The notes below the pieces were generated by a model, which worked only from the letters and a program-made list of their open reading frames with translations, was not told where the DNA came from and did no database searches. DNA of 64,000 bases from Nocardioides scoriae (GTDB taxonomy: Bacteria; Actinomycetota; Actinomycetes; Propionibacteriales; Nocardioidaceae): positions 2,046,001-2,110,000 of the forward strand of contig NZ_LT629757.1 of assembly GCF_900104965.1 (NCBI RefSeq), given 5' to 3'. Below are positions 16,091 through 45,815 of this stretch, one piece after another. Numbering within the stretch: the first letter of the stretch is position 1; each line of letters begins with the position of its first letter. The translations under genes and the position numbers were made by a program.

Positions 16091-16247
16091 GCACGACGTC
16101 CTGCGGCACGAAGACCACCGCCTCCGGGCGTCGTGCGAGGTGGTCGCCCCGGCATCCGGGGCGCATGACGTCGAGCGGGACGTCGTGCGAGGTGGTCGCC
16201 CCGGCAGCCGGGACGCATGACGTCCCGGTGCCACGCACGACGTCCCG
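16091..16247. repeat. Family 2 repeat array, locus 1 (52-bp units)
   Basis: Two tandem 52-bp units start at 16129 and 16181, each beginning CGTCGTGCGAGGTGGTCGCC and containing CGCATGACGTC. Partial units flank them (ACGACGTCC at 16093, ACGACGTCCC near 16236). Within a unit, GACGTCRTGCG pairs with CGCATGACGTC, with an inner CCCGG/CCGGG hairpin. The core is shared with loci at 44300 and 45685. Confidence 0.85.
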
Positions 16248-16370
16248 CCACGGCGCCGACCCACCACGCCCCGGAACGGCTCGGGCGGGATCGCAGGGCC
16301 AGCGCCGCAGCGCTTGTCCACAGCTCCGGACGCGACCCTCGCGGCACGGGCGCCGACCGCCCAGGGTGGA

Positions 16371-16670
16371 GTGGTGCGCCGTACCGCCTGCCTGCTGGTC
16401 CTCGTGTCGCTGGTCGCGTCCGCCTGCGCGCCGACGGGCCGCGACGACGCGGTGGTGGATCGCACCTCGGACGCGTCGTGCTGGGCCCTGACGGCGGCCG
16501 ATGACCGTCATGCGAAACACGAGCGCCGGTCGGCGTACGCCACCTGGCGCCTGCGCCACCTCGACCCGCGCCGCCTCGACCCGCGCCGCGTCGAAGGGTC
16601 GCCGTCGGCCGCCGCGCACCCGGACCGGGCAACTCGGGCGTCCATGAGGGCCGAAACTGCCCGTCCGTGA
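16371..16670 (+). CDS. Doubtful small lipoprotein-like ORF
   Basis: A possible 99-residue product. The first 20 residues look like a lipoprotein signal (VVRRTACLLVLVSLVASAC, lipobox ASAC). The rest is low-complexity, Arg/Ala/His-rich and continues into family 1 repeat copy B, so its C terminus is not natural coding sequence. It may be a gene remnant truncated by repeat insertion, or a chance frame. No family is recognised. Confidence 0.3.
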   Translation: MVRRTACLLVLVSLVASACAPTGRDDAVVDRTSDASCWALTAADDRHAKHERRSAYATWRLRHLDPRRLDPRRVEGSPSAAAHPDRATRASMRAETARP

Positions 16671-16723
16671 CCGATCTGCCCGGTTCCGCGGGCAGTTTCC
16701 CCGGTCGACCGGGGAAACTGCCC
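16650..16723 (+). repeat. Family 1 palindromic repeat, copy B
   Basis: A 74-bp element. The 34-nt palindrome at 16690-16723 is perfect (17-bp arms, GGGCAGTTTCCCC... around GGTCGACC). An upstream GAAACTGCCCG arm (16653-16663) can pair with the same CGGGCAGTTTC strand, so two hairpins compete. It ends 7 bp before the stop of the convergent helicase gene. Confidence 0.88.
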
Positions 16724-16729
16724 CAGCCC

Positions 16730-19264
16730 TCAGAGCCGCACCATCCCCGTCACGTCCAGCACCAGCTCCCCCTCGTCGTCGGAGGCGGTGAGGTCGACGG
16801 TCGCGAGCAGGCGCCAGTCGTGGTAGCCCTCGGGGTCGCCGATGACCTGCTGGACCTCCCAGGTGGTCGCCGTCTTCTCGACGAGCAGCATCCGGGGGCC
16901 GCGGGCGTCGGCGCCGGTGTCGATGGAGTCGTGCTCGGAGAAGTACGCCGCGAGCGCCTCGTCCCAGTCGGCCTCGGTCATCGTCGAGCCGGCCTCGGCC
17001 TCGAGCGCGACCAGCTCGGCCACCCGGCGGCGGGAGGCGAGCTCGACCCGGCGGAACATCGCGTTGCGCACCAGCACGGTGAAGGCGCGCACGTTGGCGG
17101 TGATCCGCTCGGGCGTGGGCGGCAGCACGTCGGGGGCGACCTCGGCGGCGGCCCGCGCGGCGGCCAGGGCGGGGTCGTTGAGGGTCTCCCACTCGTCGAG
17201 CAGGCTCGAGTCGGTCTGGCGGACGACGGCGCCGAGCCACTCGATGATGTCGTCGAGCTCGTCGGTGCGCACCCGGTCGGGCACGGTCTGGCGCAGCGCC
17301 CGGTAGGCGTCGCCGAGGTAGCGCAGCACCAGCCCCTCGGAGCGGGTCAGGCCGTAGAACGCGACGTACTCCCCGAAGCCCATCGCGCGCTCGTAGACGT
17401 CGCGCACCACCGCCTTGGGCGACAGCGCGTCCTCCCCCACCCACGGGTGGTGGGCGCGGTAGAGCGAGAAGGTGTGCTCGAGCAGCTCCTGCAGGGGCTG
17501 GGGGTGGGTGACCTCCTCGAGCAGCTCCATGCGCTCCTCGTACTCGATGCCCTCGGCCTTCATCGCCCCGATCGCCTCGCCCCGCGCCAGGTGCTCCTGG
17601 GCGCCGAGCACCGGTCGGGGGTCGTCAAGTGTTGCCTCGATGACCGAGACCACGTCCAGGGCGTACGTCGGCGCCTCCGGGTCGAGGGTGTCCAGCACGT
17701 CGAGGGCGTACGCCGACAGCGGCTGGTTGAGCGCGAAGTCGAGCTGCAGCCCCTCGGCCAGCCGCACCCGCCGGCCGTCCGGCTCGCGGGGCACCAGCTC
17801 GACCACCCCGGCGGCGAGCAGCGCGCGGTGCTGGGCGGCGGCGAGCCGCATCAACCGGCGTCGCGACCGCTCGTCCTCGTGGTTGTCGCGCAGCAGGTGG
17901 CGCATCGCGGCCGCGGGGTCGCCGGGCCGCGCGATGACGTTGAGCAGCATCGAGTGGGTCACCCGCATCCGGGAGACCAGCGCCTCGGGCTCGGCGTGGA
18001 CCAGCCGCTCGAAGCTGTCCTCGTTCCAGGTGACCTGGCCCTCGGGGGGCTTCTTGCGCTGCACCCGCTTGAGCTTCTTGGGGTCGTCGCCGGCCTTCTT
18101 GACCAGCCGGTGGTTCTCGACGGCGTGCTCGGGCGCCTGCACCACGACGGTGCCGGCGGTGTCGAAGCCGGCCCGCCCGGCGCGGCCGGCGATCTGGTGG
18201 AACTCCCGGGCCTTGAGCATCCGCTGGCGGTGGCCGTCGTACTTCGTGAGCCCGGTGAACACCACCGTGCGGATCGGCACGTTGATGCCGACGCCCAGCG
18301 TGTCCGTGCCGCAGATGACCTTGAGGAGGCCGGCCTGGGCGAGCTGCTCGACGAGGCGGCGGTACTTCGGCAGCATCCCCGCGTGGTGCACCCCGATCCC
18401 CGAGCGCAGCAACCGCGACAGCGTCCGCCCGAAGCCGGCGCTGAACCGGAAGGTCGCCAGCGTCTCGGCGATCCGGTCCTTCTCCTCGCGGGTGGCGACG
18501 TTGATGCTGGTCAGCGCCTGCGCGCGCTCGAGAGCCGAGGCCTGCGTGAAGTGCACGACGTACGCCGGCGCCTGGTGCGTCGTCAGCAGCTCCTCGATCG
18601 TCTCGTGCAGCGGCGTCAGGGCCCACTCGAACGACAGCGGCACCGGTCGGGTGGCGCTGGTGACGACGGCGGTGGGGCGGCCGGTGCGCCGGGTCAGGTC
18701 CTCCTCGAAGAGGCTGACGTCGCCCAGCGTCGCCGACATCAGCAGGAACTGGGCGCCGGTGAGCTCGATGAGCGGCACCTGCCAGGCCCAGCCGCGGTCG
18801 GGCTCGGCGTAGAAGTGGAACTCGTCCATGACGACCTGGCCGACGTCGGCCGACGCGCCCTCGCGCAGCGCGATGTTGGCCAGCACCTCGGCGGTGCAGC
18901 AGATGATCGGCGCCTGGGAGTTGATGGAGGCATCGCCCGTGAGCATGCCGACGTTGCTCGCCCCGAAGACGTCGATGAGCGCGAAGAACTTCTCCGAGAC
19001 CAGCGCCTTGATGGGGGCGGTGTAGAAGGTGCGGCGGCCCTGCGCCAGCGCGACGGCGTGGGCGGCCAGCGCGACCAGGCTCTTGCCGGTGCCGGTCGGG
19101 GTGGACAGGATCACGTGGTTGCCGCTGACCAGCTCGATCAGCGCCTCGTCCTGCGCGGGGTAGAGGCTCAGTCCCTGCTCGTCGACCCAGGTCGCGATCG
19201 CGTCGTAGAGGGCGTCGGGGTCGGAGGTGGCTCGGGCATCGGGCAGCAGGTCGAGGAGGCGCAT
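16730..19264 (-). CDS. DEAD/DEAH-box Ski2-like RNA helicase (DUF3516-type)
   Basis: An 844-residue superfamily 2 helicase. Walker A STPTGTGKS is at 54-62, motif II is DEFH at 147-150 (DExH class), motif III SAT is at 177-179, and the second RecA domain carries GVGINVPIRTVVFTG and the QIAGRAGRAGFD motif VI. The roughly 450-residue C-terminal part matches the DUF3516 region seen in actinobacterial helicases of this group. It probably unwinds structured RNA in turnover or ribosome maturation. The ATG follows a GGGGG Shine-Dalgarno. Substrate is inferred from family. Confidence 0.92.
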   Translation of the reverse strand: MRLLDLLPDARATSDPDALYDAIATWVDEQGLSLYPAQDEALIELVSGNHVILSTPTGTGKSLVALAAHAVALAQGRRTFYTAPIKALVSEKFFALIDVFGASNVGMLTGDASINSQAPIICCTAEVLANIALREGASADVGQVVMDEFHFYAEPDRGWAWQVPLIELTGAQFLLMSATLGDVSLFEEDLTRRTGRPTAVVTSATRPVPLSFEWALTPLHETIEELLTTHQAPAYVVHFTQASALERAQALTSINVATREEKDRIAETLATFRFSAGFGRTLSRLLRSGIGVHHAGMLPKYRRLVEQLAQAGLLKVICGTDTLGVGINVPIRTVVFTGLTKYDGHRQRMLKAREFHQIAGRAGRAGFDTAGTVVVQAPEHAVENHRLVKKAGDDPKKLKRVQRKKPPEGQVTWNEDSFERLVHAEPEALVSRMRVTHSMLLNVIARPGDPAAAMRHLLRDNHEDERSRRRLMRLAAAQHRALLAAGVVELVPREPDGRRVRLAEGLQLDFALNQPLSAYALDVLDTLDPEAPTYALDVVSVIEATLDDPRPVLGAQEHLARGEAIGAMKAEGIEYEERMELLEEVTHPQPLQELLEHTFSLYRAHHPWVGEDALSPKAVVRDVYERAMGFGEYVAFYGLTRSEGLVLRYLGDAYRALRQTVPDRVRTDELDDIIEWLGAVVRQTDSSLLDEWETLNDPALAAARAAAEVAPDVLPPTPERITANVRAFTVLVRNAMFRRVELASRRRVAELVALEAEAGSTMTEADWDEALAAYFSEHDSIDTGADARGPRMLLVEKTATTWEVQQVIGDPEGYHDWRLLATVDLTASDDEGELVLDVTGMVRL

Positions 19265-19304
19265 CGCACCCCCATCCTCCCCGACCTGCCCCCGAACGCC
19301 GCCA

Positions 19305-19496
19305 TCAGCGGCGGAGCTTGCCCAGCAGGCCGCGCACGCCGCGGCCGATCGCCTCGTCGGTGGAGCTGCGGCCGCCGGCGCCGTGACCGGCCCCGGGCCC
19401 TCCGACCCGTCCGGGTCCGGGGGTGCCGCCGGTGCGTCGGCCGCCGGCAGCGCCGCCGCCGACGACCCGGTTGATGATGCCTCGCAGATTGGCCAT
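19305..19496 (-). CDS. Small Gly-rich hypothetical protein
   Basis: A 63-residue protein, MANLRGIINRVVGG then a Gly/Arg/Thr-rich middle and a basic end, GVRGLLGKLRR. The two amphipathic ends around a flexible centre hint at membrane-surface or partner binding. The start follows GGGAG at good spacing. It is not recognised; it lies between the helicase and DksA/TraR genes on the same strand. Confidence 0.55.
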   Translation of the reverse strand: MANLRGIINRVVGGGAAGGRRTGGTPGPGRVGGPGAGHGAGGRSSTDEAIGRGVRGLLGKLRR

Positions 19497-19577
19497 GACC
19501 GTCTCCCTCACGTGTCGCGGGCGTCGTTGCCCGATGTGCTCCCGTGCCCGGTGGAGGCGGTTCCGAATCCCCCGACC

Positions 19578-19901
19578 TCAGCGACGGGCGGCGTCCTCGA
19601 CGCACAGGACCGCCCACGGCAGCGCCTCGAGGCGGCCCGCCGGGATCTCGCGCCCGCAGGCGTCGCAGCGGCCGTAGGTGCCCTCGTCCAGCTTCTCCAG
19701 CGCCCGCAGCACCTCGGTCCGCACGCCGCGCAGCTGGTCGTGGACGGCCACCTGCTGCATCCGGTCGACCGCCATCGAGGTGCCCTCGCCGATCCGCTTG
19801 CCGAAGGAGATCCCGCCGGTCTCGGTCGGTGGACGCTCCATCTCGGTCATCTCGGCGTCCATCTCGTCGCGCTTGGCCTCGAGCTGCTGGCGGGTGTCCA
19901 T
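19578..19901 (-). CDS. DksA/TraR-family zinc-finger protein
   Basis: A 107-residue protein with an N-terminal coiled-coil-forming region (about 1-70) and a C-terminal finger, EGTYGRCDACGREIPAGRLEALPWAVLCVED. Members of this family bind the RNA polymerase secondary channel and modulate transcription. The finger shows only three Cys (CDAC and the Cys in VLCVED); the fourth usual Cys is replaced by Asp, so metal binding may be three-Cys or absent. Whether it affects polymerase here is unknown. Confidence 0.85.
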   Translation of the reverse strand: MDTRQQLEAKRDEMDAEMTEMERPPTETGGISFGKRIGEGTSMAVDRMQQVAVHDQLRGVRTEVLRALEKLDEGTYGRCDACGREIPAGRLEALPWAVLCVEDAARR

Positions 19902-19925
19902 CCGCCCAGCATGCCCCGCCGGCCG

Positions 19926-20855
19926 TCAGTCCAGCGGCTCCTCGTGGGCCCAGAGCGGCGAGTCCTTGGCCGAGACCAGGCGCTGCGCCTCGTGCTGCGG
20001 CAGCGCCTCCAGCCGCTCGGCGAGGTCCATGCCGTAGCCCGCGATCTCGGCGGCGCCGGCCAGCGGCACGACCGAGTGGACCAGGCGGTCGTCGTACGCG
20101 TGGACCATGGTGAAGCTCTGGTGGCCGTCGACCGAGGACATGAACCGACTGGTCGGGGCCGGGTCGGCGACGTAGCAGGTCGCCGAGGCCACCGAGACCG
20201 GGACGCCCGCGAAGGTCGAGAACGACGAGAAGTGGAAGTGGCCCCCCAGGACCCCGCGCACGTCGGTGCCCCGGACCACCTCGGCCAGGGCCTGCTGGTC
20301 GGCGAGCTCGATGAGGGCCGAGAGCCGCACGATCGGCACCGGGATCGGTGCGTGGTGCATCGCCAGCAGCGTGCCGTGCTCCGCGGGCGTGGCCAGCACG
20401 TCGGCGAGCCACTCGAGCTGGGCCGGCGACAGCTCGCCGTGGTGGAAGCCGGGCACCGTCGTGTCGAGAGCCACGATGCGCAGGCCGGCCACGTCGTGGA
20501 CCCGGTCGAGGCTCGCGTCGGGGCCGACCTCGGTGCCCCACAGCTCGCGGGCGAAGGGCTGCGGCTCGTCGTGGTTGCCCATCGTCCAGACCACCTCGGC
20601 GCCCATCTGGGCGGCCTCGGGCTCGACGATCTCGCGCAGCCGGCGGTAGGCGTCGGGCTCGGCCCGGTCGGCGAGGTCGCCGGTGAACACGATCGCCTGC
20701 GGCGGCGTCTCCAGCCGGGTCAGCCGCTCCATGGCCGAGCGGAGGTGCTCGGTGGTGTCGACCGCGCCGTAGAGGCGGTGACGGGCGAGCAGGTGGGGGT
20801 CGCTGAGGTGGGCGACGGTGTGGCGCGGAAGCGGGTGCTGGCCCAGGGCTCTCAC
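19926..20855 (-). CDS. cpdA: Cyclic-nucleotide phosphodiesterase, CpdA/Rv0805-like
   Basis: A 309-residue binuclear metallophosphoesterase. Metal-binding blocks are HLSDPHL, FTGDLAD, MGNHDE, HHAPIP and GGHFH. The overall sequence follows Mycobacterium tuberculosis Rv0805 closely (LYGAVDT, QAIVFTGDLADRAEPDAYRR, GFHHGELSPAQLEWLA, PVSVASATCYV), an enzyme known to hydrolyse 3',5'-cAMP and other substrates. The GTG start at 20855 is 7 nt from TAGCGT with no Shine-Dalgarno (leaderless). It is divergent from xthA. A cAMP role fits the CRP-type site at 59152 but is not proven. Confidence 0.92.
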   Translation of the reverse strand: MRALGQHPLPRHTVAHLSDPHLLARHRLYGAVDTTEHLRSAMERLTRLETPPQAIVFTGDLADRAEPDAYRRLREIVEPEAAQMGAEVVWTMGNHDEPQPFARELWGTEVGPDASLDRVHDVAGLRIVALDTTVPGFHHGELSPAQLEWLADVLATPAEHGTLLAMHHAPIPVPIVRLSALIELADQQALAEVVRGTDVRGVLGGHFHFSSFSTFAGVPVSVASATCYVADPAPTSRFMSSVDGHQSFTMVHAYDDRLVHSVVPLAGAAEIAGYGMDLAERLEALPQHEAQRLVSAKDSPLWAHEEPLD

Positions 20856-20862
20856 CGGGACC

Positions 20863-20868
20863 ACGCTA
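20863..20868 (-). promoter_or_regulatory. -10-like box, leaderless start
   Basis: TAGCGT on the minus strand, 7 nt before the GTG start of the phosphodiesterase gene. Confidence 0.45.
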
Positions 20869-20903
20869 CGAGGCCGCGGGGTCCTGCGCACGTCACCGCC
20901 CCT

Positions 20904-20909
20904 TAGGCT
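20904..20909 (+). promoter_or_regulatory. -10-like box, leaderless start
   Basis: TAGGCT, 6 nt before the GTG start of xthA, with no Shine-Dalgarno. Confidence 0.5.
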
Positions 20910-20915
20910 CGCCGG

Positions 20916-21689
20916 GTGCGCCTCGCCACCTGGAACGTCAACTCCCTCCGCAGCCGGATCGACCGCGTCGAGGGCTTCCTGCAGCGCCACGACGTCGACG
21001 TGCTCGCCGTCCAGGAGACCAAGGCGCGCGAGGAGCAGCTGCCGCTGATGGGCCTCAGCTCGCTCGGGTACGACGTCGCCGCCGTCGGCCACGACCAGTG
21101 GAACGGCGTCGCGATCATCAGCCGCGTGGGCCTCGAGGGCGTCGAGGTCGGGTTCGCCGGCATGCCGACGTGGGGCGAGCCGCCGGTGGCCGAGGCCCGG
21201 GCGCTGGGGGCAACGTGCGGCGGCGTACGGGTGTGGTCGCTGTACGTCCCCAACGGCCGCAAGGTCGACGACCCGCACTACGCCTACAAGCTGGAGTGGC
21301 TGGCGCGGCTGCGCGAGGCCGCGCGCGCCATGACCGGCGACACCGCCCTGGTCGGCGACTGGAACATCGCGCCCCAGGACGAGGACGTCTTCGACCTCGC
21401 GGCCTTCGCGAGGAGCACCCACGTCACCCGCCCCGAGCGCGCGGCGTTCGAGGCCTTCCTCGAGGACGGCTGGTCCGACGTCACCCGCGCGCACACGCCG
21501 GGTCCCGAGGTCTACACCTACTGGGACTACTACCGGCAGCGCTACGAGCGCAACCGCGGCATGCGCATCGACTTCGTGCTGGGCGACCCCGGGCTCGCCG
21601 GCCGCGTCCGCGGCGCCTTCATCGACCGCGAGGAGCGCGCCGGCAAGGGCGCCAGCGACCACGCCCCCGTGGTCGTCGACCTCGACTGA
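20916..21689 (+). CDS. xthA: Exodeoxyribonuclease III
   Basis: A 257-residue endonuclease/exonuclease/phosphatase-fold enzyme cleaving DNA at abasic sites and degrading 3' ends in base-excision repair. Visible catalytic blocks: TWNVNSLRSR, VQETKAREE (metal-binding Glu), VGDWNIAPQDEDVFD and the C-terminal KGASDHAPVVVDL (Asp-His pair). Length is normal for XthA. GTG start, apparently leaderless. Followed after 24 bp by the class V aminotransferase gene, probably with separate translation from its own Shine-Dalgarno. Confidence 0.95.
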   Translation: MRLATWNVNSLRSRIDRVEGFLQRHDVDVLAVQETKAREEQLPLMGLSSLGYDVAAVGHDQWNGVAIISRVGLEGVEVGFAGMPTWGEPPVAEARALGATCGGVRVWSLYVPNGRKVDDPHYAYKLEWLARLREAARAMTGDTALVGDWNIAPQDEDVFDLAAFARSTHVTRPERAAFEAFLEDGWSDVTRAHTPGPEVYTYWDYYRQRYERNRGMRIDFVLGDPGLAGRVRGAFIDREERAGKGASDHAPVVVDLD

Positions 21690-21713
21690 CCCACCGACCT
21701 CTCGGAGACCCGC

Positions 21714-22925
21714 ATGGACCTCGACACCGGCGCCGTGCGCGCCTGCTTCCCCGCCCTGGCCGACGGGCGCGCCCGCTTCGACTCCCCCGGCGGCTCGCTG
21801 ACGCCGACCGTCGTGGCCGACGCCGTCGCCGCGACCCTGCTCGCCGGCCTGAGCAACCGCGGGCCGGTCAACCCCTCGGAGCGCCGCGCCGACGAGGTGG
21901 TCCTCGCCGCCCGCACCGCCGTCGCCGACCTGGTGGGCGGCGACCCGCGCGGCGTCGTCTTCGGCCGCTCGATGACCGAGCTGACCTGGGCCCTGGCCCG
22001 GACCCTGGCCGCAGGGTGGGGGGCCGGCGACGAGGTGGTCGTGACGCGCCTGGACCACGACGCCGACGTGCGCCCGTGGGTGGTGCTCGCGGAGCGCGCC
22101 GGGGCGACGGTGCGCTGGCTGGGCTTCGACCGCGCGACCGGCGAGCTGGACGACGTCGCCACCGTGCTGTCCGAGCGCACCCGGCTGGTGGCCGTCACCG
22201 GCGCCTCCAACCTCATCGGCACGCGGCCCGACGTCGCCGCGATCGCCGCCGCCGCCCACGCGGTGGGCGCCCTGGTCCACCTCGACGCGGTCCACCTGGT
22301 GCCGCACGCGCCGGTCGACCTGCCCGCGCTCGGCGTCGACCTCCTGGCCTGCTCGCCCTACAAGTTCTTCGGACCCCACCACGGCGCCCTGGTCGCCTCG
22401 CCCGACCTGCTCGAGACGCTGCGCCCCGACAAGCTCGCGCCCTCGACCGACGCGGTGCCCGAGCGCTTCGAGCTCGGCACCCTGCCCTACGAGCTGCTGG
22501 CCGGCACGACCGCAGCGGTCGACTTCGTGGCCGCGCTGGCCGCACCCGACCCCGATCCCGCTGCGGGTGCGACCACCCGGCGGGAGCGGGTGCTGGCGTC
22601 GATGGCGGCCGTCGAGCGGCACGAGGCGGCCCTGCTCGCGCGGCTGCTCGAGGGGCTGGACGGTCTGGCCCACGTGCGGACGCACGGCCGCGCGGCGCGA
22701 CGCACGCCCACGGTGCTGCTGGAGGTCGACGGCCGCTCCGGCCGCGAGGTGCACGAGCACCTCGGCGCGCTCGGGATCAACGCCCCGGCCAGCAACTTCT
22801 ACGCCCTGGAGGCGTCGCGCTGGCTGGGCCTGGGCGATGCCGGGGCCGTGCGCGTCGGGCTGGCGGCGTACAGCAGCGCGGACGACGTCGACCGCCTGCT
22901 CGCGGGGCTCGCCCGGCTCGCCTGA
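21714..22925 (+). CDS. Cysteine desulfurase-like aminotransferase (class V)
   Basis: A 403-residue PLP enzyme of the cysteine-desulfurase-like class V group. The PLP Lys is in SPYKFFGPHHG, and the Asp pairing with the pyridine nitrogen is in VHLDAVHLVPH. FDSPGGSLTP near the N terminus is characteristic of this branch (TIGR01976-like), which lacks the Cys-loop of true NifS/IscS, so sulfur transfer is uncertain. ATG follows GGAGA. It ends in the gap that holds family 1 repeat copy C, convergent with katG. Confidence 0.88.
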   Translation: MDLDTGAVRACFPALADGRARFDSPGGSLTPTVVADAVAATLLAGLSNRGPVNPSERRADEVVLAARTAVADLVGGDPRGVVFGRSMTELTWALARTLAAGWGAGDEVVVTRLDHDADVRPWVVLAERAGATVRWLGFDRATGELDDVATVLSERTRLVAVTGASNLIGTRPDVAAIAAAAHAVGALVHLDAVHLVPHAPVDLPALGVDLLACSPYKFFGPHHGALVASPDLLETLRPDKLAPSTDAVPERFELGTLPYELLAGTTAAVDFVAALAAPDPDPAAGATTRRERVLASMAAVERHEAALLARLLEGLDGLAHVRTHGRAARRTPTVLLEVDGRSGREVHEHLGALGINAPASNFYALEASRWLGLGDAGAVRVGLAAYSSADDVDRLLAGLARLA

Positions 22926-22992
22926 CCCGTCGTACGCCGCGCGGCTCTCGGGCCCGGGGACGCCGAAGGGGACGAACCGGGCGCCGATGTCG

Positions 22993-23066
22993 GCCGAAAC
23001 TGCCCGTGCTCGTCCCCTTCGCCCGTTTCCGCGGGCAGTTTCCCCGGTCGACCGGGGAAACCGCCC
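22993..23066 (+). repeat. Family 1 palindromic repeat, copy C
   Basis: A 74-bp element; the 34-nt palindrome at 23033-23066 has one mismatch (ACCGCCC for ACTGCCC). The left part GCCGAAACTGCCCGT and CTTCGCCCGTTTCCGCGGGC are shared with copies B or A. It lies in the convergent gap between the aminotransferase and katG, 12 bp from the katG stop. Confidence 0.87.
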
Positions 23067-23077
23067 GCAGCGGTGGC

Positions 23078-25774
<2,697 letters not shown>

Positions 25775-25789
25775 CTACCTTCGCACCTG

Positions 25790-25808
25790 TTCTGGAACGA
25801 ATCAAGAA
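25790..25808. promoter_or_regulatory. Inverted repeat upstream of furA (possible FurA operator)
   Basis: TTCTGGA-N5-TCAAGAA, arms matching at 6 of 7 positions, in a local AT-rich patch 20 nt upstream of the furA start. Its position fits an autoregulatory FurA/CatR site. It also falls in the region upstream of the divergent rmuC gene. Binding has not been shown. Confidence 0.5.
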
Positions 25809-25855
25809 AAGACACGGCCCGATCTCCTGTCGGTGGTCGCTGCCACCCTGCTCGC

Positions 25856-26995: not shown

Positions 26996-27002
26996 GCCGA
27001 CC

Positions 27003-27008
27003 TACGTT
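27003..27008 (+). promoter_or_regulatory. -10-like box, leaderless start
   Basis: TACGTT, 6 nt before the GTG at 27015, with no Shine-Dalgarno. Confidence 0.5.
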
Positions 27009-27014
27009 GTCCGC

Positions 27015-28048: not shown

Positions 28049-28058
28049 CGGCAGCGGC

Positions 28059-29066: not shown

Positions 29067-29100
29067 GGTAGGTGGCGGGTCCCGTGTCGGCCCGGCCACC

Positions 29101-29106
29101 TAAGGT
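29101..29106 (+). promoter_or_regulatory. -10-like box, leaderless start
   Basis: TAAGGT, 8 nt before the ATG of xseA, with no Shine-Dalgarno. Confidence 0.5.
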
Positions 29107-29114
29107 GTGCGTCC

Positions 29115-30380: not shown

Positions 30381-30630
30381 GCCCACGACCGGGGCACCCG
30401 AACGCAGGGCCGGGGACGGCGCCGACGACGGGACCGCCGAGGAGCTGAGCTACGAGGAGGCCCGCGACCAGCTGGTCGAGGTGGTCCGCTCCCTGGAGGG
30501 CGGCGGCACCAGCCTCGCCGAGTCGCTGGCGCTCTGGGAGCGCGGCGAGGAGCTCGCCCGCCGCTGCCAGGAGGCCCTGGAGGGGGCGCGCGCCCGGCTC
30601 GACGCGGTCGTCGAGGGCGAGCAGCGCTGA
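30373..30630 (+). CDS. xseB: Exodeoxyribonuclease VII small subunit
   Basis: An 85-residue protein: a 24-residue charged N-terminal extension, then the XseB fold [20 protein letters not shown] and [19 protein letters not shown]. It coats the XseA helical arm and is needed for activity. Shine-Dalgarno AGGAGG lies just upstream inside xseA. Confidence 0.95.
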
Positions 30631-32277: not shown

Positions 32278-32288
32278 GGCCCGCCCGG

Positions 32289-34011: not shown

Positions 34012-34086
34012 CCTCGGACGGTAGCGTTGGTGACCAGATACCTGGCGCACATCGCCGAAATCCCCATGATCCGGAAAAGAGGGACC

Positions 34087-35025: not shown

Positions 35026-35044
35026 GAGCCGGTGGTGCTGCGGG

Positions 35045-36127
<1,083 letters not shown>

Positions 36128-36252
36128 GTGTCTATCTCCTCACCGGCAGGAACGTGCCGGACGATCCGTTGTAAGTGACGGCAGTCACCCTAGGGGTTCA
36201 CCCCCCTCCCGTCGACCTGTGACGGGCGTTACACAGTCGTGACCTCCCAGCC

Positions 36253-36258
36253 TTGACG
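36253..36258 (+). promoter_or_regulatory. -35-like hexamer TTGACG
   Basis: A good -35 element; no clear -10 is seen at 17 nt, where the operator core lies. It probably belongs to the binding-protein gene. Confidence 0.4.
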
Positions 36259-36267
36259 CACCGATGA

Positions 36268-36281
36268 CGTAAACGCTTTCA
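36268..36281. promoter_or_regulatory. LacI-family (cre-like) operator
   Basis: CGTAAACGCTTTCA; on the other strand TGAAAGCGTTTACG, 13 of 14 matches to the cre/LacI-family pattern TGNAARCGNTTWCA. It lies 56 bp upstream of the binding-protein start, between the divergent transporter genes, overlapping the expected promoter. The LacI regulator at 41184 is the natural candidate. Confidence 0.75.
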
Positions 36282-36337
36282 TCTGCGCTGTCAGCACCAG
36301 GCCCACCCAGGGGCGAGGACGAGGGAGAAACGATCAC

Positions 36338-37717: not shown

Positions 37718-37731
37718 TCCGTCTCCTCCCT

Positions 37732-37781
37732 GGGTGGTGAGGACCGGGTCGCGGCGCGAGCCGCGGCCCGGTCCCCCACCC
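37732..37781 (+). terminator. Long hairpin between binding protein and permease genes
   Basis: About 22 base pairs in two blocks (GGGTGG/CCACCC and GGACCGGG.CGCGGC/GCCGCG.CCCGGTCC) around a GCGA tetraloop. It could protect the binding-protein mRNA end or partly terminate transcription, so that the lipoprotein is made in excess over permeases. Confidence 0.7.
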
Positions 37782-37821
37782 GCCCACGTCCCCCCTCCCG
37801 ACGACGACCCTCGGAGCGGCC

Positions 37822-38784
37822 ATGTCCACCCCTGAGAAGTTCCTCAACCTGCTCTTCGCTGTCTTGCTCTTCTTCGGGGTCATGGGCGCGATCCTGCTCC
37901 TGACCCAGCGGTTCCGCTCGCGCGCTGGCGAGCGCATCCAGGTCGCCGCCTTCGTGCTGCCCTCGCTGCTGATGGTGGCGGTCGGCCTGCTCTACCCCGC
38001 GATCACCACGATCGTGCAGTCCTTCAAGAACCGCTCGCTGACCGAGTTCGTCGGCTTCGACAACTACCAGGCGATCTTCACCGACCCGGCCCAGCTGCAG
38101 GTGCTGCGCAACACCGCGATCTGGGTCATCGTGACGCCGGTCCTCGCGACCGCCATCGGCCTGGTGTACGCCGTGCTCATCGACCGCGCCCGCTTCGAGA
38201 AGTTCGCCAAGACGCTGCTGTTCCTGCCGATGGCGATCTCGCTCGTGGGCGCGTCGATCATCTGGAAGTTCGTCTACGACTACAAGGCCACCGAGCAGGA
38301 CCAGCTCGGCATCCTCAACGCCATCCTCAAGTCGTTCGGCGTCGAGACCTACCGGTTCCTGCTGACCGAGCCCTGGAACACGCTGTTCCTCATCGTCATC
38401 TTCATCTGGGTGCAGGCCGGCTTCGCCATGACGCTGCTCTCCGCGTCGATCAAGGCCATCCCCGACGACATGATCGAGGCCGCCAAGCTCGACGGCGCGA
38501 GCGCGCTGAAGATGTTCCGCTTCATCACGATCCCGAGCATCCGTCCGGCCCTGATCGTGGTGCTCACCACCATCAGCATCGCGACGCTCAAGGTGTTCGA
38601 CATCGTCCGCACCAGCACCGGCGGCAACTTCGGCACCAGCGTGCTGGCCAACGAGTTCTACACCCAGAGCTTCCGGGCCTTCCAGCAGGGACTGGGAGCC
38701 GCGCTCGGCACCCTGATCTTCGTGCTGGTGCTGCCCATCGTCGTCTACAACATCCGTCAGATGCGCAAGCTGGAGTCCCGATGA
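37822..38784 (+). CDS. Sugar ABC transporter permease (MalF type)
   Basis: A 320-residue permease with about seven hydrophobic segments (first at 8-28, then 40-62 and onward). The cytoplasmic EAA loop reads EAAKLDGASALKMFRFITIP, which docks on the ATPase. Probably the MalF/AglF-like subunit. Overlaps the next gene (ATGA). Confidence 0.92.
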   Translation: MSTPEKFLNLLFAVLLFFGVMGAILLLTQRFRSRAGERIQVAAFVLPSLLMVAVGLLYPAITTIVQSFKNRSLTEFVGFDNYQAIFTDPAQLQVLRNTAIWVIVTPVLATAIGLVYAVLIDRARFEKFAKTLLFLPMAISLVGASIIWKFVYDYKATEQDQLGILNAILKSFGVETYRFLLTEPWNTLFLIVIFIWVQAGFAMTLLSASIKAIPDDMIEAAKLDGASALKMFRFITIPSIRPALIVVLTTISIATLKVFDIVRTSTGGNFGTSVLANEFYTQSFRAFQQGLGAALGTLIFVLVLPIVVYNIRQMRKLESR

Positions 38785-39734
38785 CCACGAGCACCCCCAC
38801 CATCGCCCCCGCGCAGATCGAGCCCCCCACGGGCCCGCCGAAGAGCGCCGCCGCGGCCGCGCACGGCGGTCTGACCAGCCGGATCGGATCGGCGGTCGCG
38901 CTGGTCATCGCCGTGCTGTGGACGATCCCGACCTTCGGCCTGCTGGTCTCCTCCTTCCGCCCCGAGGGCGAGGTCAAGACCAACGGCTGGTGGAACGCCT
39001 TCACCAACCCGTCGTTCACCTTCGACAACTACAAGTCGGTCATCACCGGCTCCGACGTCGACCTGGCGACGTACTTCGTGAACTCGTTCGTCATCACGAT
39101 CCCGTCGGTGCTGATCCCGATCAGCCTGGCGACGCTCGCGGCGTACGCCTTCGCCTGGATGGACTTCAAGGGCCGCCACCTGCTGTTCGTGGCCGTCTTC
39201 GCGCTCCAGATCGTGCCGATCCAGGTGACGATGATCCCGCTGCTCAAGCTCTACGTGAACCCGCCGTTCGGCCTGCCCCAGCTCGCGGGCGCCAACGCCG
39301 TCGGTGGCGGCTTCTGGACCGTGTGGCTCTCCCACTCGATCTTCGCGCTGCCGCTGGCGATCTACCTGATGCACAATTTCATGCGCGAGATCCCCGGCGA
39401 GCTGATCGAGTCGGCGCGCGTCGACGGCGCCGGCCACGTGCAGATCTTCACCCGCATCATGCTGCCGCTGCTCACCCCGGCCATCGCGGCCTTCGGCATC
39501 TTCCAGTTCCTGTGGGTCTGGAACGACCTGCTCGTGGCGCTGGTGTTCGCCGGCGGCAACCTGGACGTCTCGCCCCTGACGGTGCGGCTCGCCGCGCTGG
39601 CGGGCCAGCGCGGCGAGGACTGGCACCTGCTCAGCGCCGGTGCGTTCGTCTCCCTGGTGGTGCCCCTGATCGTCTTCCTCGCCGGTCAGCGCTACTTCGT
39701 GCGCGGCCTGCTGGCCGGAAGTGTCAAGGGCTGA
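38781..39734 (+). CDS. Sugar ABC transporter permease (MalG type)
   Basis: A 317-residue permease with about six membrane segments; the EAA loop is ESARVDGAGHVQIFTRIMLP. It is the second inner-membrane subunit (MalG/AglG-like), translated from an ATGA overlap with the MalF-type gene. Its last 11 bp overlap the convergent beta-glucosidase gene. Confidence 0.92.
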   Translation: MTTSTPTIAPAQIEPPTGPPKSAAAAAHGGLTSRIGSAVALVIAVLWTIPTFGLLVSSFRPEGEVKTNGWWNAFTNPSFTFDNYKSVITGSDVDLATYFVNSFVITIPSVLIPISLATLAAYAFAWMDFKGRHLLFVAVFALQIVPIQVTMIPLLKLYVNPPFGLPQLAGANAVGGGFWTVWLSHSIFALPLAIYLMHNFMREIPGELIESARVDGAGHVQIFTRIMLPLLTPAIAAFGIFQFLWVWNDLLVALVFAGGNLDVSPLTVRLAALAGQRGEDWHLLSAGAFVSLVVPLIVFLAGQRYFVRGLLAGSVKG

Positions 39735-41139
39735 CGGCCGCCCCGGCGACTCGGGCAGCCTCGCGGAGGTCGTCCGCATGGGCGGCCACCCACCGGTAGG
39801 AGGCCTTGGGGGTGCGCGTCTGGTCCTCCGACGCGACGTGCACCAGCCCGAAGGTCTTCGTGTAGCCCTCGGCCCACTCGAAGTTGTCGAGCAGGGTCCA
39901 CACGAAGTAGGCCCGCACGTCGGCACCTGCGCGGCGCGCGTCGTTCACCGCAGCGAGGTGGCCGCGCAGGTAGTCGATGCGGTCCTGGTCGTCGACGGCG
40001 TACGTCGGGGCCTCGCCCTCCGCGACCGGCGCGACCTCGTCGACGCAGGCGGCGCCGTTCTCGGTGACGATGATCGGCACGCCGACGCGCTCCCAGGTCG
40101 TGGTCAGCACGTCGGTCAGGCCCGCGGGCTCGATCTCCCAGCCGATGTCGGTGCGGGGCTCGCGGACCACCAGGTCGAAGGGCGCGACGCCCGGGTAGGC
40201 GCCCCCCTCGGGGTGGGGCGCGGCGTCCGCCAGGGCGACGTCGGGGCGCACGGGCGTGTAGTAGTTGACGCCCAGCCAGTCGACCGAGCCCTGGATCCGG
40301 TCCAGGTCACCGGTCTGGACCAGCTCGGGGTCGGCCAGCTCCGGCGCGACGGACAGCAGCTGCTCGCCGTACGCCCCGTCGACGAGCGGGTCGAGCCACA
40401 CCGCGTTGCGGATGGCGTCGATGCCGGCGCTGACCTCGCGCGCCTCCTCCCGCTCGGGCCAGATCGGGGCGAGGTTGAGCACGATGCCCACGGCCTCGGC
40501 GCCCGCCGCCCGCAGCCGCTCCGCGGCCAGCGCGTGGCCCAGGTTGAGGTGGTGGGCCGCGCGGTGCGCCGCTCCCCCCTCCTGGCGACCCGGGGCGTGC
40601 ACGCCCGCGGCGTAGCCGAGGTACGCCGCGCACCACGGCTCGTTGTGCGTGGCCCACAGACCCACCCGGTCGACGAGCCGCTGCGCCACCACGTCGGCGT
40701 ACTCCGCGAAGGCCTCGGGGGTGCTGCGCACCAGCCAGCCGCCCTCGTCCTCCAGCGCCTGCGGCAGGTCCCAGTGGAAGAGCGTGGCGCTGGGCACCAG
40801 GCCCCGCTCGAGCATGCCGTCGACGAGGCGGTCGTAGTAGTCGAGCCCGCGCTCCTCCACGCGCCCGCGCCCCTCGGGCACGATCCGCGGCCAGGCGATG
40901 GAGAAGCGGTAGTACTCCACGCCGAGGCCGGCGACGAGGTCGAGGTCCTCGGTCCACCGGTGGTAGGAGTCGCAGGCCACCGAGCCGTCGCGACCGTCGG
41001 CGGTCGCGCCGGGGCGCTGGCTGAAGACGTCCCAGATCGAGGGGCCACGGCCGTCCTCGGTGAAGGCCCCCTCGATCTGGTAGGACGCGGTGGCGGTGCC
41101 GAGGGCGAATCGGCCGGGCTCGGGCAGTGCGGGGCTCAT
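39724..41139 (-). CDS. GH1 beta-glucosidase
   Basis: A 471-residue glycoside hydrolase family 1 enzyme. N-terminal signature FALGTATASYQIEGAF, acid/base in THNEPWCAA and nucleophile in IIVTENGAA. No signal peptide, so it acts in the cytoplasm on imported beta-linked disaccharides or aryl glucosides. Placement beside the ABC importer and LacI regulator suggests one regulon. The exact sugar (beta-glucoside versus alpha-glucoside) is not settled; the importer family leans to alpha, the hydrolase to beta. Confidence 0.93.
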   Translation of the reverse strand: MSPALPEPGRFALGTATASYQIEGAFTEDGRGPSIWDVFSQRPGATADGRDGSVACDSYHRWTEDLDLVAGLGVEYYRFSIAWPRIVPEGRGRVEERGLDYYDRLVDGMLERGLVPSATLFHWDLPQALEDEGGWLVRSTPEAFAEYADVVAQRLVDRVGLWATHNEPWCAAYLGYAAGVHAPGRQEGGAAHRAAHHLNLGHALAAERLRAAGAEAVGIVLNLAPIWPEREEAREVSAGIDAIRNAVWLDPLVDGAYGEQLLSVAPELADPELVQTGDLDRIQGSVDWLGVNYYTPVRPDVALADAAPHPEGGAYPGVAPFDLVVREPRTDIGWEIEPAGLTDVLTTTWERVGVPIIVTENGAACVDEVAPVAEGEAPTYAVDDQDRIDYLRGHLAAVNDARRAGADVRAYFVWTLLDNFEWAEGYTKTFGLVHVASEDQTRTPKASYRWVAAHADDLREAARVAGAAVSP

Positions 41140-41183
41140 GTCGGGGAACCCTACGGTCCGCTCCCCCGCCGGCGGGAGCGCCG

Positions 41184-42228
41184 ATGACCGGCATCAAGGA
41201 CGTCGCCCTCGACGTCGGCCTCTCGATCGCGACGGTCTCGCGCGCCCTGCGCGGCCAGCCCGGCGTGTCGGCCGACAACCGCCACCGGATCGAGCAGGCC
41301 GCGGCACGGCTGGGCTACGTGCCCTCGCGCACGGCCGCCAACCTGGCCACCGGACGCACCCGCACCGTCGCCGTGGTGGTGCCCTACGTCAGCCGCTGGT
41401 TCTTCTCCACCGTCGTGCACGGCGCCGAGCAGGTGCTGAGCGGCCGGGGCTACGACCTGCTGCTGTTCAACCTCGCCGGCTCCGCCGAGGCCCGCCACCG
41501 GGTGATGCAGACCCACCAGCTGACCAAGCGCGCCGACGCCGTGGTCATCCTCGGGCTGCAGCCCACCCCGGCCGAGCAGACGTGGCTGGCCGACCACGCC
41601 GCCCGCGTGGTGTTGGTCGGCGCCAGCGTGCCCACCTGGCCCAGCGTCACCATCGACGACGAGGCCGCCTCGGTCACCGCCGTGGCCCACCTGGCCGCCC
41701 TCGGCCACCGCCGGATCGCCTACGTCGGCGGCTCGGCCGAGGAGGCCCTCGACTTCGCCACCCCGCGCGCCCGGCTGGTCGGCTTCCACCGCGCCATGAG
41801 CGAGTCCGGCCTCGAGGCCGACCCCGCCCTGGAGCGGGTCGGTGGCTTCACCGTCGCCGGCGGGCTCGCCGCGGGCCACGACCTGCTCGACCTGGACCAG
41901 CCCCCCACCGCGGTGTTCTGCGCCTCCGACGAGATGGCCATCGGCGTGCTCCGGGCCGCCCGCGACCGGGGCGTCGCCGTGCCCGAGCAGCTGTCCGTGG
42001 TGGGCATCGACGACCACGAGATGGCGCAGTTCCTCGACCTCACGACCGTGCGGCAGCCCGTCGCGGAGCAGGGTCGGCAGGCGGCGCTGCAGGTGCTCGC
42101 CCTGCTCGACGAGGACCCGCCGGAGCCCGTCCCGGCACGCCACCTGGTGCTCGAGACCGAGCTGGTGGTCCGCTCCAGCACCGGGCCCGCGCCCGCGGGC
42201 GGCGCGGCGTACGGGATAATCGCCGGTC

Positions 42229-42245
<17 letters not shown>
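41184..42245 (+). CDS. LacI-family transcriptional regulator
   Basis: A 353-residue repressor. HTH at the N terminus ([22 protein letters not shown]), hinge region [12 protein letters not shown], then a periplasmic-binding-protein-like effector domain ending in [13 protein letters not shown] and [11 protein letters not shown]. It probably represses the importer and GH1 genes from the operator at 36268. Start at ATG 41184 follows GGGAG; a longer reading from 41127 lacks such a site and overlaps the GH1 start. The 3' end overlaps the fumarase GTG by 17 bp. Confidence 0.9.
42215..42220 (+). promoter_or_regulatory. -10-like box, leaderless start
   Basis: GATAAT, 8 nt before the GTG of the class I fumarase gene, inside the end of the LacI gene; close to the TATAAT consensus. 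Confidence 0.55.
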
Positions 42246-43905
<1,660 letters not shown>

Positions 43906-43911
43906 GGGCGC

Positions 43912-44148
43912 TCAGGCCTCGAGGTCGCGGTCGACGGCGGGGTCCCGGACCTCGTCGTCCTTGACGTAGTCGCCGTTGCGGTGCGCCTCGTCGCGCGACC
44001 CGCTGCGGGCGTTGGGGCCCTGGCGGCCCTCCTGCACGTCGTCCTCGTGGGGCTGACCCGCGACCGACTGGTCGTCCGAGATCGGCTGCGGCCCGCCGCC
44101 CATGCTGCTGGCCTCCGAGACCTGGCCTTCGGACTCCTGCTCGCCCAC
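43912..44148 (-). CDS. Small acidic hypothetical protein
   Basis: A 78-residue hydrophilic, probably disordered protein rich in Asp, Glu, Gln and Gly (VGEQESEGQVSEASSMGGGP onward). GTG start follows GGGAG. No family is recognised; it lies between the fumarase and the repeat array. Similar small acidic ORFs occur in Nocardioides-type genomes, but I cannot assign a role. Confidence 0.5.
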   Translation of the reverse strand: MGEQESEGQVSEASSMGGGPQPISDDQSVAGQPHEDDVQEGRQGPNARSGSRDEAHRNGDYVKDDEVRDPAVDRDLEA

Positions 44149-44299
44149 GGTGACTCCCTCTGCTCGTCGTGCTGCGTCCCTGGCCGCGCGGCTGCTGCCG
44201 CTCGGCGTGCTCCCCGAGGCTAGCGAGCGGGTCCTCACGGGGTGCGCTCCCCCCAGACGTCATCAGGCCGACGGGGCGGGCCCGCGTCGTCCGGGCTGG
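44149..44299. other. Intergenic sequence, nothing recognised
   Basis: About 150 bp without a convincing gene, promoter or hairpin; it leads into the family 2 repeat array. Confidence 0.5.
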
Positions 44300-44620
44300 G
44301 CGCGTCGTACGAGGTGGCCGTCCGGGCTGGGCGCGTCGTACGAGGTGGCCGTCCGGGCTGGGCGCGTCGTACGAGGTGGCCGTCCGGGCGGGGCGCGTCA
44401 TGCGAGGTGGCTGCCCGGGTGTGGCCGCGTCATGCGACGTGGCCGTCGGGGGCGACGGCGCGTCATGCGAAGTGGCTGGCCCGGGGACCGGTCCGCATGA
44501 CGTCGTACGGGAGGTCATGCGAACTGGCCGCCGGAGCGACCACCCCGCATGACGTCCCGACCGCGCGAGGTGGTGCCGCCTCCCACGAGGTGGTGCTGCC
44601 TCCCGGGCGTCCGGTGGCGT
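44300..44620. repeat. Family 2 repeat array, locus 2 (31-bp tandem units)
   Basis: Three near-identical 31-bp units at 44300, 44331 and 44362 (core GCGTCGTACGAGGTGGCCG) followed by three diverged units (to about 44495) in which CGTCATGCGA replaces CGTCGTACGA. Then come inverted pieces (CCGCATGACGTC at 44493 and 44546) and partial GCGAGGTGGTGCC units to 44600. Core shared with loci 1 and 3. Confidence 0.85.
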
Positions 44621-44625
44621 CTCAC

Positions 44626-45594
44626 TCATGCCGCTGAGCGCGGGGCGCGCCAGCCGGCGCGACAAAGTGCTTCCTCGACCTGGTCGAAGAACACGTCCGG
44701 GGCGACGCGGAGGCCGAGGACGGGGAGGCGGAGCACGACGTCACCGTCGAGGGCGACCCGGTTGTGGCGGACGGCGTCGGCGACGAGGTTCTCCGCCCAG
44801 GTGTGCTGGATGCCGTCGACCTCGAGGACCACGTGCCAGCGGTCCCAGCGGAAGTCGAGATAGCAGGACCCCGAGGGAGCACGCCGCACCACCTGCTGGT
44901 CGGGCAGCGGGAGTCCGCGCTCCCGACATCCGCGGAGCACGTCGAGCTCTCCCAGCGAGCCGACGCCTCCGGCGAGGTCGAGCAGGAGGTTGCCCAACTG
45001 CTCGCGACGCCGGTCCCGTCGGATGCGCATCAGCTCCACCGCGAGGTCGGCGACGGTCGTGAGCCGCTGCTGCACCGCCATCGTCACGAGCAGGGTCGCC
45101 TGCCGCTCGGTCCGTGCCCACAGCGCCGCGCGCACGGCCGCCACCGCGGGGCGGGTGCGGGGCGGCGACGAACCGCCGGCGACGTCACCGGCGTCCCAGC
45201 GGCGGGTCTGCCGGATGTCCACCGTGGTGCCGCGGTGGCGGATCCGGGCGCCCCGGGGCACCGAGACGCGGATCCGCTCCGGCTCGTAGTGCTCGAGACC
45301 AGCGGCCACCAGCGACGAGTCCCCGTCGAGGACGGCCCGTGGTCCACCCTCGAGGACCGCCGACCACAGGCGGGCCTGCGTGGTGAGCGGCCCCGAGTGC
45401 ACCACCACGCAGTGGCGACCGATCAGCTGCCACCGACCGGCCCGGACGTCGGCGCGGACCTCGCTGCGGGTGAGGCCGGCGGCGTACAGCTGCGACCGCG
45501 CCACGACGCCGCCCTGCCGCGACGCGACCTCCCGGACGCGACGCCCGCGGTCGCCCCGTCTCGGCTCGTCGCGCCCGGCCCGCTGGATGTCCAT
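44626..45594 (-). CDS. AbiEi-like / DUF559 protein
   Basis: A 322-residue two-part protein. N-terminal winged-helix AbiEi-antitoxin-like region (about 15-75, REVASRQGGVVARSQLYAAG then LTRSEVRADVRAGRW). C-terminal DUF559/Vsr-like PD-(D/E)XK fold: LDFRWDRWHVVLEVDGIQH and later VLRLPVLGLRV. Such genes are common in Nocardioides and often near repeats or mobile regions; no toxin partner (AbiEii) is beside it. Nuclease activity is inferred from the fold. It is bracketed by family 2 repeats in opposite orientations. Confidence 0.8.
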   Translation of the reverse strand: MDIQRAGRDEPRRGDRGRRVREVASRQGGVVARSQLYAAGLTRSEVRADVRAGRWQLIGRHCVVVHSGPLTTQARLWSAVLEGGPRAVLDGDSSLVAAGLEHYEPERIRVSVPRGARIRHRGTTVDIRQTRRWDAGDVAGGSSPPRTRPAVAAVRAALWARTERQATLLVTMAVQQRLTTVADLAVELMRIRRDRRREQLGNLLLDLAGGVGSLGELDVLRGCRERGLPLPDQQVVRRAPSGSCYLDFRWDRWHVVLEVDGIQHTWAENLVADAVRHNRVALDGDVVLRLPVLGLRVAPDVFFDQVEEALCRAGWRAPRSAA

Positions 45595-45684
45595 GGCTGC
45601 AGCCTGCGACCACCGACCTCGATCCGCACAGGCCACGACGCGACCTGTGGACGACCGACGCCGCCCGGGTTCCTGTGGACCAGC

Positions 45685-45815
45685 GGGACGTCATACATTG
45701 CGGCCGTCCCGGCGACCACCGCGTACGACGTCCCCCGGGACGTCATGCATCCCGGCCGCCCCCGCGACCACCTCGCATGACGCACCCCGGGATCGGACGA
45801 CCACCTCGGGGCCGG
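45685..45815. repeat. Family 2 repeat array, locus 3 (52-bp units)
   Basis: Two tandem 52-bp units at 45685 and 45737 beginning GGGACGTCATRCAT; each contains GCGACCACC and a GCGTACGACGTC or CGCATGACG end. Inverted relative to locus 1 and to most of locus 2. A partial unit (GACCACCTCGGGGC) follows near 45800. Confidence 0.85.

Follow-up and report, generated by a model that had tools for sequence, protein, structure and literature searches.

A palindromic repeat family tied to a DUF559 nuclease-type gene in Nocardioidaceae

Introduction

Palindromic repeats lie at three loci within a 64,000-nt stretch of the Nocardioides scoriae genome (NZ_LT629757.1, positions 2,046,001-2,110,000 of the forward strand; genome size 4.06 Mb), which we call the window. 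What are these repeats, and which enzyme could spread them? An earlier sequence-only reading had described a palindromic, mobile-like repeat growing in tandem, knew of no described family with its core, and suggested a RAYT-like transposase as the partner to look for. We find that the repeats are a real, large family with a tied gene, which encodes a nuclease-type protein of the DUF559 kind. Two of the three loci flank this gene, a point that the sequence-only reading had overlooked.

Repetitive extragenic palindromic (REP) sequences are widespread bacterial repeats. In the REP/RAYT pairing, short intergenic palindromes occur at the 3′ side of genes as pairs or arrays, beside one gene that tracks their copy number, and copies may persist in genomes without that gene. 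The portion of Di Nocera 2013 (PMC3733652) considered here divides REPs into GTAG-tagged ones, found with RAYTs, and CGTC-tagged ones, apparently without a dedicated transposase; of the two classes, only the GTAG one is linked there to an enzyme. For the CGTC class, the same portion describes AT-starting stems of 8-9 bp, a loop of 4-5 bases, an unpaired CCA tail, paired units and a position behind genes; the word Actinobacteria is absent from it.

Results

The repeats share a 46-bp palindromic unit

All three proposed loci contain the repeat, at slightly shifted coordinates. The unit consists of an arm GACGTCRTRCG, a variable centre of 24 bp and the inverted arm CGYAYGACGTC. Together these make a 46-bp palindrome with CGTC tags at both ends, often found in tandem pairs with a 52-bp period. 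CGG and CCG outside the unit extend the symmetry to 52 bp, which agrees with this period. At locus 1, two 47-bp copies (16126-16172 and 16178-16224) are 94% identical and 52 bp apart; the 46-bp units within them span 16127-16172, with a left outer arm GGCGTC, and 16179-16224, with a 6-bp linker in between. A lone arm, CGCACGACGTC, follows as a partial unit on the minus strand (16234-16244). Locus 2 starts at 44288 and not at 44300 as first thought. Three identical 31-bp units (44288-44380) open a run of tandem half-units of 31-33 bp on the plus strand that reaches 44486 with diverged copies, as the sequence-only reading had described, and two 46-bp units lie at 44459-44504 and 44511-44556. Locus 3 (45684-45787) is made of two 52-bp copies, 81% identical, with units at 45687-45732 and 45739-45784, the latter having an outer arm that ends in GACGCA. 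The 52-bp period with inverted arms thus stands as proposed; the inner CCGG hairpin proposed with it is merely one variant of the variable centre.

Searching with up to one mismatch, we find 12 matches of CGCATGACGTC in the window, compared with 3.37 expected and a maximum of 8 in 100 shuffles, and 64 matches of CGTCRTGCGAGGTGG in the whole genome, compared with 3 for the reversed pattern. As the core of the family, CGTCRTGCGAGGTGG did not hold: it has 25 exact matches in its own genome and no more than 2 in any of 57 relatives, and CGTCAT...ATGACG is the more general constant. At own-genome loci chosen by single arms, the gap between arms was 24 bp in 50 cases and 36 bp in 10, the latter arising partly from arms of neighbouring units; other gaps of 10-44 bp occurred at most 4 times each. 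Over all loci the 24-bp gap occurred 225 times and other gaps at most 20 times, but many of those loci were fetched by the gap-24 pattern itself, so the claim of strict spacing rests on the own-genome count. Pairs make up 18 of the 25 own-genome arrays, with a spacing of 52 bp in 20 of 29 cases and of 60-63 bp in the remainder. Positions 3-8 of 216 distinct units read C (0.96), G (1.00), T (0.99), C (1.00), A (0.86; G 0.13) and T (0.98), most of these bases being already demanded by the search pattern.

The family extends across Nocardioidaceae and lies mostly behind genes

With up to three mismatches, the window's genome matches the unit at 55 places and the reversed pattern at 0, and 23 of the 24 genomes of the genus contain a match. 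The other 23 genus genomes comprise 13 with 1-6 matches (reversed controls 0-2) and nine with 12-36. Searching the exact pattern in one genome per species returned at least 119 stretches; 79 of the 80 listed belong to Nocardioides, Marmoricola or Mumia, and the remaining one to an unplaced Actinomycetota bin. At up to two mismatches, the unit is matched one or more times in 216 of 341 Nocardioidaceae genomes, in some of them by chance. Above the Rfam gathering score, only msiK was matched in the window, leaving the repeats without a known Rfam family, and no described family with this core was found in the open-access literature, among the matches listed. Because relatives hold a large family and no described one with this core was found, neither finding named beforehand as speaking against the proposal, namely absence from relatives or a match to a known element, was obtained.

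The units are mostly behind genes. Using our own gene caller, we placed 152 unit clusters at loci of other species, a few of which hold chance matches or own-genome repeats: 53 lie between convergent genes, 55 between tandem genes and 7 between divergent genes; predicted genes contain another 22, and the remaining 15 are at edges. At the same loci, the background of gene pairs with gaps above 150 bp is 34 convergent, 98 tandem and 58 divergent. The 20 own-genome clusters divide into 9 convergent, 9 tandem and 2 divergent.

Two variants of array were seen in related species. Nocardioides sp. GY 10127 has an array of eight near-identical arms with a 62-bp period, unit plus linker (L090:3320-3862), and a long hairpin variant, GACGTCAT..GGATCGTGGCC..GACGTCC, is mixed into other arrays (L051:3456-3501, L278/L289).

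Units flank one subfamily of nuclease-type genes

The gene between loci 2 and 3 (44626-45594, minus strand) encodes a 322-aa protein with an AbiEi-like region and a DUF559 region (PD-(D/E)XK, Vsr-like); locus 2 lies on its 3′ side and locus 3 on its 5′ side. Of 50 loci with an orthologue, 36 have units on both sides of the gene and 7 on one side, 43 in total; the other 7 have none. Among the 30 best gene matches, a unit lies within about 450 bp in all 30 (24 both sides, 6 one side), and the reversed pattern in 0. The 20 lower-ranked loci, chosen by hand with weight on genomes having few or no units and taken without a reversed control, gave 12 flanked on both sides, 1 on one side and 7 on none. 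Of these 7, six show another repeated flank scoring at least 49 and one (G065a) shows none. At the G063 gene, GACGTCATCAC...GTGATGACGTC-like palindromes take the place of the unit, and several variant flanks retain CGTCAT.

Seven of the 24 genus genomes contain an orthologue at 57-100% identity, and with up to five mismatches allowed each of these has units on both sides. Weaker homologues of genus genomes, at 34-37% identity, had a unit beside them in 0 of 7 cases, so the unit goes with this gene subfamily. In two genomes of another genus (G060 and G071), the sole two unit matches of each genome are the two that flank the gene.

Unit number follows the gene

Calling the gene present at an E-value of 1e-70 or better, we find it in 116 of 341 Nocardioidaceae genomes. 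These have a median of 9 and a mean of 15.0 units; the 225 genomes without the gene have a median of 0 and a mean of 2.7 (Mann-Whitney p = 4.9e-26; 1.8e-15 in genus g6 alone, both values treating related genomes as independent and thereby overstating independence). The gene is present in 55 of the 72 genomes with at least 10 units. In the window's genus, at least 5 units occur in 7 of 7 genomes with the gene versus 3 of 17 without. Genus g22 has low unit counts, and 1 of its 10 genomes with the gene reaches 5 units.

The protein is related to PD-(D/E)XK nucleases

The window protein matches DUF559 (E 0.00095) and AbiEi_4 (E 0.018) below the Pfam cut-offs; the L120 orthologue clears the DUF559 cut-off, as do several other subfamilies, and some orthologues weakly match PvuRts1I-like and MTES_1575 nuclease families. 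Matches to solved structures are weak (PvuRts1I, E 0.048; 3hrl, named Endonuclease-Like Protein, E 0.23). Ten aligned orthologues share 83 invariant columns, including D247, E258, D260, G261 and H264, which we take to be a PD-(D/E)XK active site. By sequence, the protein is thus related to the PD-(D/E)XK family with conserved acidic residues, and nuclease activity is predicted.

A second gene of the AbiEi-DUF559 type is present in the window's genome (G000:C1:2189191-2190084; L214) and in G008 (L216). It has a palindrome of its own, GTCGTGAGG...CTCACGAC, distinct from the 46-bp unit.

Gene positions and flanking units carry signs of mobility

The 39 gene loci, with several genomes counted two or three times, fall into 13 neighbour clusters, possibly an overcount since eight of these hold just one locus each, in some cases close to the edge of a contig or locus. 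The largest cluster, beside a fumarase-type gene, has 17 rows and the second, at ispG/rseP, has 7. Homologues lie between units at other places as well: L120 between ispG and an rseP-like gene, and L129 beside a LysR-type gene (neighbour names come from our reading of the translations). L243 has the gene beside the fumarase-type gene; in L246 and L088 the same two neighbours are 56 and 138 bp apart and the gene is absent.

At 17 of 24 distinct loci, the two units flanking the gene are closer to each other in direct than in inverted order (21 of 29 by rows, with G000, G008, G009, G010 and G012 entered twice). At L217, L226, L228, L240 and L243, the flanking units differ at 0, 1, 1, 1 and 2 of 46 bases in direct order and at 7-14 in inverted order. 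Since the DNA outside these near-identical units differs, the 46 bp seems to have been copied as a unit. We also compared three sites between the close relatives G008 and G009: one is shared, one differs in array size and one holds different units. The earlier description of a palindromic, mobile-like repeat growing in tandem is supported.

Other explanations of the palindrome were set aside

We asked whether the symmetry is kept as an RNA hairpin. In the window's genome (n = 35), the inner arms of the same copy paired at 0.540 versus 0.567 when swapped between copies, in G008 (n = 24) at 0.549 versus 0.571, and an A:C pair at position 7 is as common in the window's genome as the column frequencies predict (9/50). 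The arms thus lack copy-by-copy covariation within a genome, which speaks against a conserved RNA hairpin. Across other genomes (n = 88), inner arms do covary (0.472 versus 0.369 swapped, z = 6.7). We read this as lineages changing both half-sites together, as would fit a site bound by a symmetric protein, and not as repair of the stem in each copy. Selection on RNA structure was accordingly dropped as the leading explanation, although other lineages do differ in a paired way.

A RAYT/Y1 transposase, the partner first suggested, was dropped too: PF01797 was not found in the window's genome (0/1) or in the genus genomes (0/24), in a search that matched it in 5 of 14 named genomes used as control. 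The idea, raised by L243, that units insert into a hairpin loop already present found no support in the 191 of 314 unique units tested, those without an arm in either 40-bp flank: the flanks beyond CGG/CCG pair no better than swapped ones (mean run 4.27 versus 4.24). REPIN-like inverted pairs, with TGCGTC outside and GACGTC inside, were suggested by G060 and G071, and in own-genome arrays GA is rarer at the outer ends (27 of 42) than at the inner ones (48 of 58); but units flanking the gene are mostly direct, and this geometry was therefore not adopted. Finally, a CRISPR-like arrangement (28-bp palindrome, 24-bp variable part) was rejected by eye, the centres being alike within a genome.

DUF559 genes elsewhere are often flanked by other palindromes

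As the unit carries CGTCAT at both ends and the stems of CGTC REPs start with AT, we predicted CGTC palindromes beside DUF559 genes elsewhere. The first alpha-Proteobacterial case came from a Novosphingobium plasmid, where a DUF559 gene lies between inverted CGTCATTTGC-TGGC-GCAAAT palindromes, with one further copy at 2 mismatches. This locus then served as query, so the plasmid set is not blind. One sample took 5 of 9 matches, including Photobacterium (H4, H6, H7 and H8 left out); a second took 19 of 29 records, the ten left out being the query record and nine from genera already represented, two of these nine from further Azospirillum species (H21 and H27). Counting either orientation, 13 of 23 plasmid DUF559 loci have a flank score of at least 50, versus 2 of 146 ordinary genes from four of the same plasmids. 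Inverted flanks alone give 11 of 23 versus 0 of 146 and miss Neisseria and Picosynechococcus.

The positive loci are from Novosphingobium, Sphingomonas (2), Sphingobium, Qipengyuania, Azospirillum lipoferum, Deinococcus (2), Pseudanabaena (2), Picosynechococcus, Tsukamurella and Neisseria gonorrhoeae; in one Pseudanabaena case (L262), a longer annotated coding sequence contains the flanks that were scored. Loci from Methylophaga, Deinococcus NW-56 (2), Azospirillum brasilense, E. coli, Synechocystis (2), Sinorhizobium, Photobacterium and Methylobacterium scored below 50. The flanks in N. gonorrhoeae are direct repeats containing a CGTC-tagged hairpin. Against our prediction, most positives have no CGTC tag in the aligned flank, and several have CCTCCCC- or GGGGGG-type palindromes. 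Two plasmid DUF559 genes lie inside operons, between transhydrogenase subunits (L251) and between sufB and sufC (L261), as expected for inserted genes.

In Actinobacteria, 15 of 20 other loci of the AbiEi-DUF559 type score at least 50, versus 2 of 128 control genes; these controls are window-genome genes of 500-1500 nt and not from the genomes of the tested loci, and one of the 2 positives is the window nuclease. The palindromes differ between DUF559 subfamilies, and one of the 15 loci (L305) is repeat-rich and not plainly palindromic.

Other features of the window

An 8-bp tandem repeat, CGGGCGGT, with 6.5 copies lies just before locus 1 (16032-16083). A second palindrome family, GGGCAGTTTCCCCGGTCGACCGGGGAAACTGCCC, is a perfect 34-bp palindrome at 16690-16723, recurs near 4942 and 23033, and is found on both sides of a metalloprotease-like gene in another locus (L031:3084-4055). 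The msiK match is a cis-regulatory RNA at 36129-36186 on the minus strand (55 bits).

Discussion

We propose that the repeats are mobile palindromes of a REP-like kind and that a Vsr-like nuclease takes the part for them that RAYT transposases play for REPs, and we give this reading a probability of roughly two in three (0.68). What we observed is the unit and its architecture, the flanking of the gene, its co-occurrence with the units, several gene positions and a change in array size, which establish the tie between gene and palindrome; binding, cutting and copying are steps that we infer. In our model, the AbiEi-like N-terminal domain would bind the two-fold symmetric arms, and the DUF559 nuclease domain would cut at or near the conserved CGTCAT...ATGACG ends. 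Repair of the break would then place a copy of the 46-bp unit, or of the gene together with its units, at a different site, and new copies would land mostly behind genes, where they do least harm. The autonomous form would be about 1.2 kb long: a unit, about 100-150 bp of upstream DNA, the AbiEi-like + DUF559 gene, 0-50 bp and a unit, with distances counted from either end of the profile match. Its gene-less partners would be the lone units, pairs and arrays.

Several observations weigh against this proposal. The p-values overstate independence, as noted; the gene is missing from 17 genomes with at least 10 units, and in 10 others it is present but no canonical unit is. Pfam matches of the window protein fall below the cut-offs, the roles of its conserved residues are presumed from likeness to PD-(D/E)XK enzymes, and a single-sequence AlphaFold model is poor (pLDDT, the predicted local distance difference test score, 45). 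Comparing the three sites of G008 and G009, we saw no clean empty site for a lone unit. No target-site duplication was found, and the flanks beyond CGG/CCG are unpaired and appear unrelated at the gene loci shown. Movement of the unit is deduced from sequence, and no movement event was observed.

The tie between gene and unit could also come about if the units were an independent repeat and a landing site for a homing nuclease gene that does not spread them. The direct-repeat flanks at 17 of 24 distinct loci fit a cassette inserted into a unit, and the 17 genomes with many units and no gene fit as well; but unit number follows the gene across the 341 genomes, and G060 and G071 hold units at the gene only. 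We consider this unlikely. Alternatively, the AbiEi-like domain might use the units as operators to control its own gene and others, the link with the nuclease then being autoregulation. Descriptions of AbiEi_4 call it a transcriptional regulator, most loci have a unit upstream of the gene, and within a genome the arms resemble DNA half-sites rather than a paired stem. The units, however, are found more behind genes than before them: in other species 7 clusters lie between divergent genes, 53 between convergent and 55 between tandem ones, and of the 20 clusters in the window's genome 2 are divergent. They also lie on both sides of the gene, as near-identical copies at some loci. This makes control by operators quite improbable.

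Terminators or mRNA-stabilising hairpins spread by selection, with the nuclease gene merely landing beside them, would account for the 3′-end position, the palindromic symmetry over 46 bp and the covariation of inner arms across other genomes (z = 6.7). Yet arms of the window's genome pair no better than swapped ones (0.540 versus 0.567) and its A:C pairs at position 7 are only as frequent as the columns predict (9/50). A terminator has no need of a conserved outer sequence and a strict 24-bp spacing, and the tie to one gene subfamily would be left unexplained; we see little chance for this reading. Mobile palindromes served by the nuclease remain our preferred reading.

How does this compare with known systems? 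Miniature inverted-repeat transposable elements (MITEs) are small, non-coding and repeated, with inverted ends, a target-site duplication and a DDE transposase as partner. Our units share the small size, the lack of coding, the repetition and the inverted ends, and differ in being 46 bp long and in the nuclease-type partner gene; no target-site duplication was found. The likeness to REP/RAYT is closer: short palindromes behind genes, in pairs or arrays, flank one gene with which copy number goes, and here too genomes without the gene can keep copies. The gene here, in contrast, is of the PD-(D/E)XK/DUF559 type and not a Y1 HUH transposase (PF01797 was not found in the 24 genus genomes), and the unit is 46 bp long with symmetric CGTCAT ends and no GTAG tag. 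As far as the portion of PMC3733652 considered here describes them, CGTC-tagged REPs share with our unit the CGTC tag adjoining an AT-starting stem, the position behind genes and the paired units; the unit here differs by its 46 bp, CGTC at both ends, the variable 24-bp centre in place of a short stem with a small loop and a CCA tail, and the presence of a dedicated gene. In its working the nuclease system is like a REP/RAYT pair without being one, and it shares some but not all features of CGTC REPs. Caulobacter VsrA (PMC12907096), a Vsr-like DUF559 protein, has the nuclease domain family in common with our protein; it was studied for cytosine methylation and the SOS response, and the portion of that paper covered here has no link of VsrA to palindromic repeats. 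Among the open-access matches listed, no title or abstract opening joined DUF559 with REP sequences, subscription papers and preprints lying outside the scope of this search.

On the partial view of PMC3733652 given above, the nuclease is plausibly the enzyme that CGTC-tagged REPs reportedly lack. A broader proposal, to which we give about even odds, is that DUF559/Vsr-like nucleases form a second, independent class of REP-associated enzymes across phyla, partners of CGTC-type and other orphan palindromes, with each subfamily spreading its own palindrome by cut-and-copy. Such spreading would be a transposition-like process without a transposase.

In Nocardioidaceae, position, number and subfamily all link a nuclease-type gene, whose domain has no known function, to palindromes; in other phyla, position does. 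The tie between repeat and gene points to a second type of repeat-spreading enzyme in bacteria, one that had gone unrecognised. DUF559 thereby gains a testable role, and the old question of which enzyme serves the CGTC class of REPs becomes directly testable.

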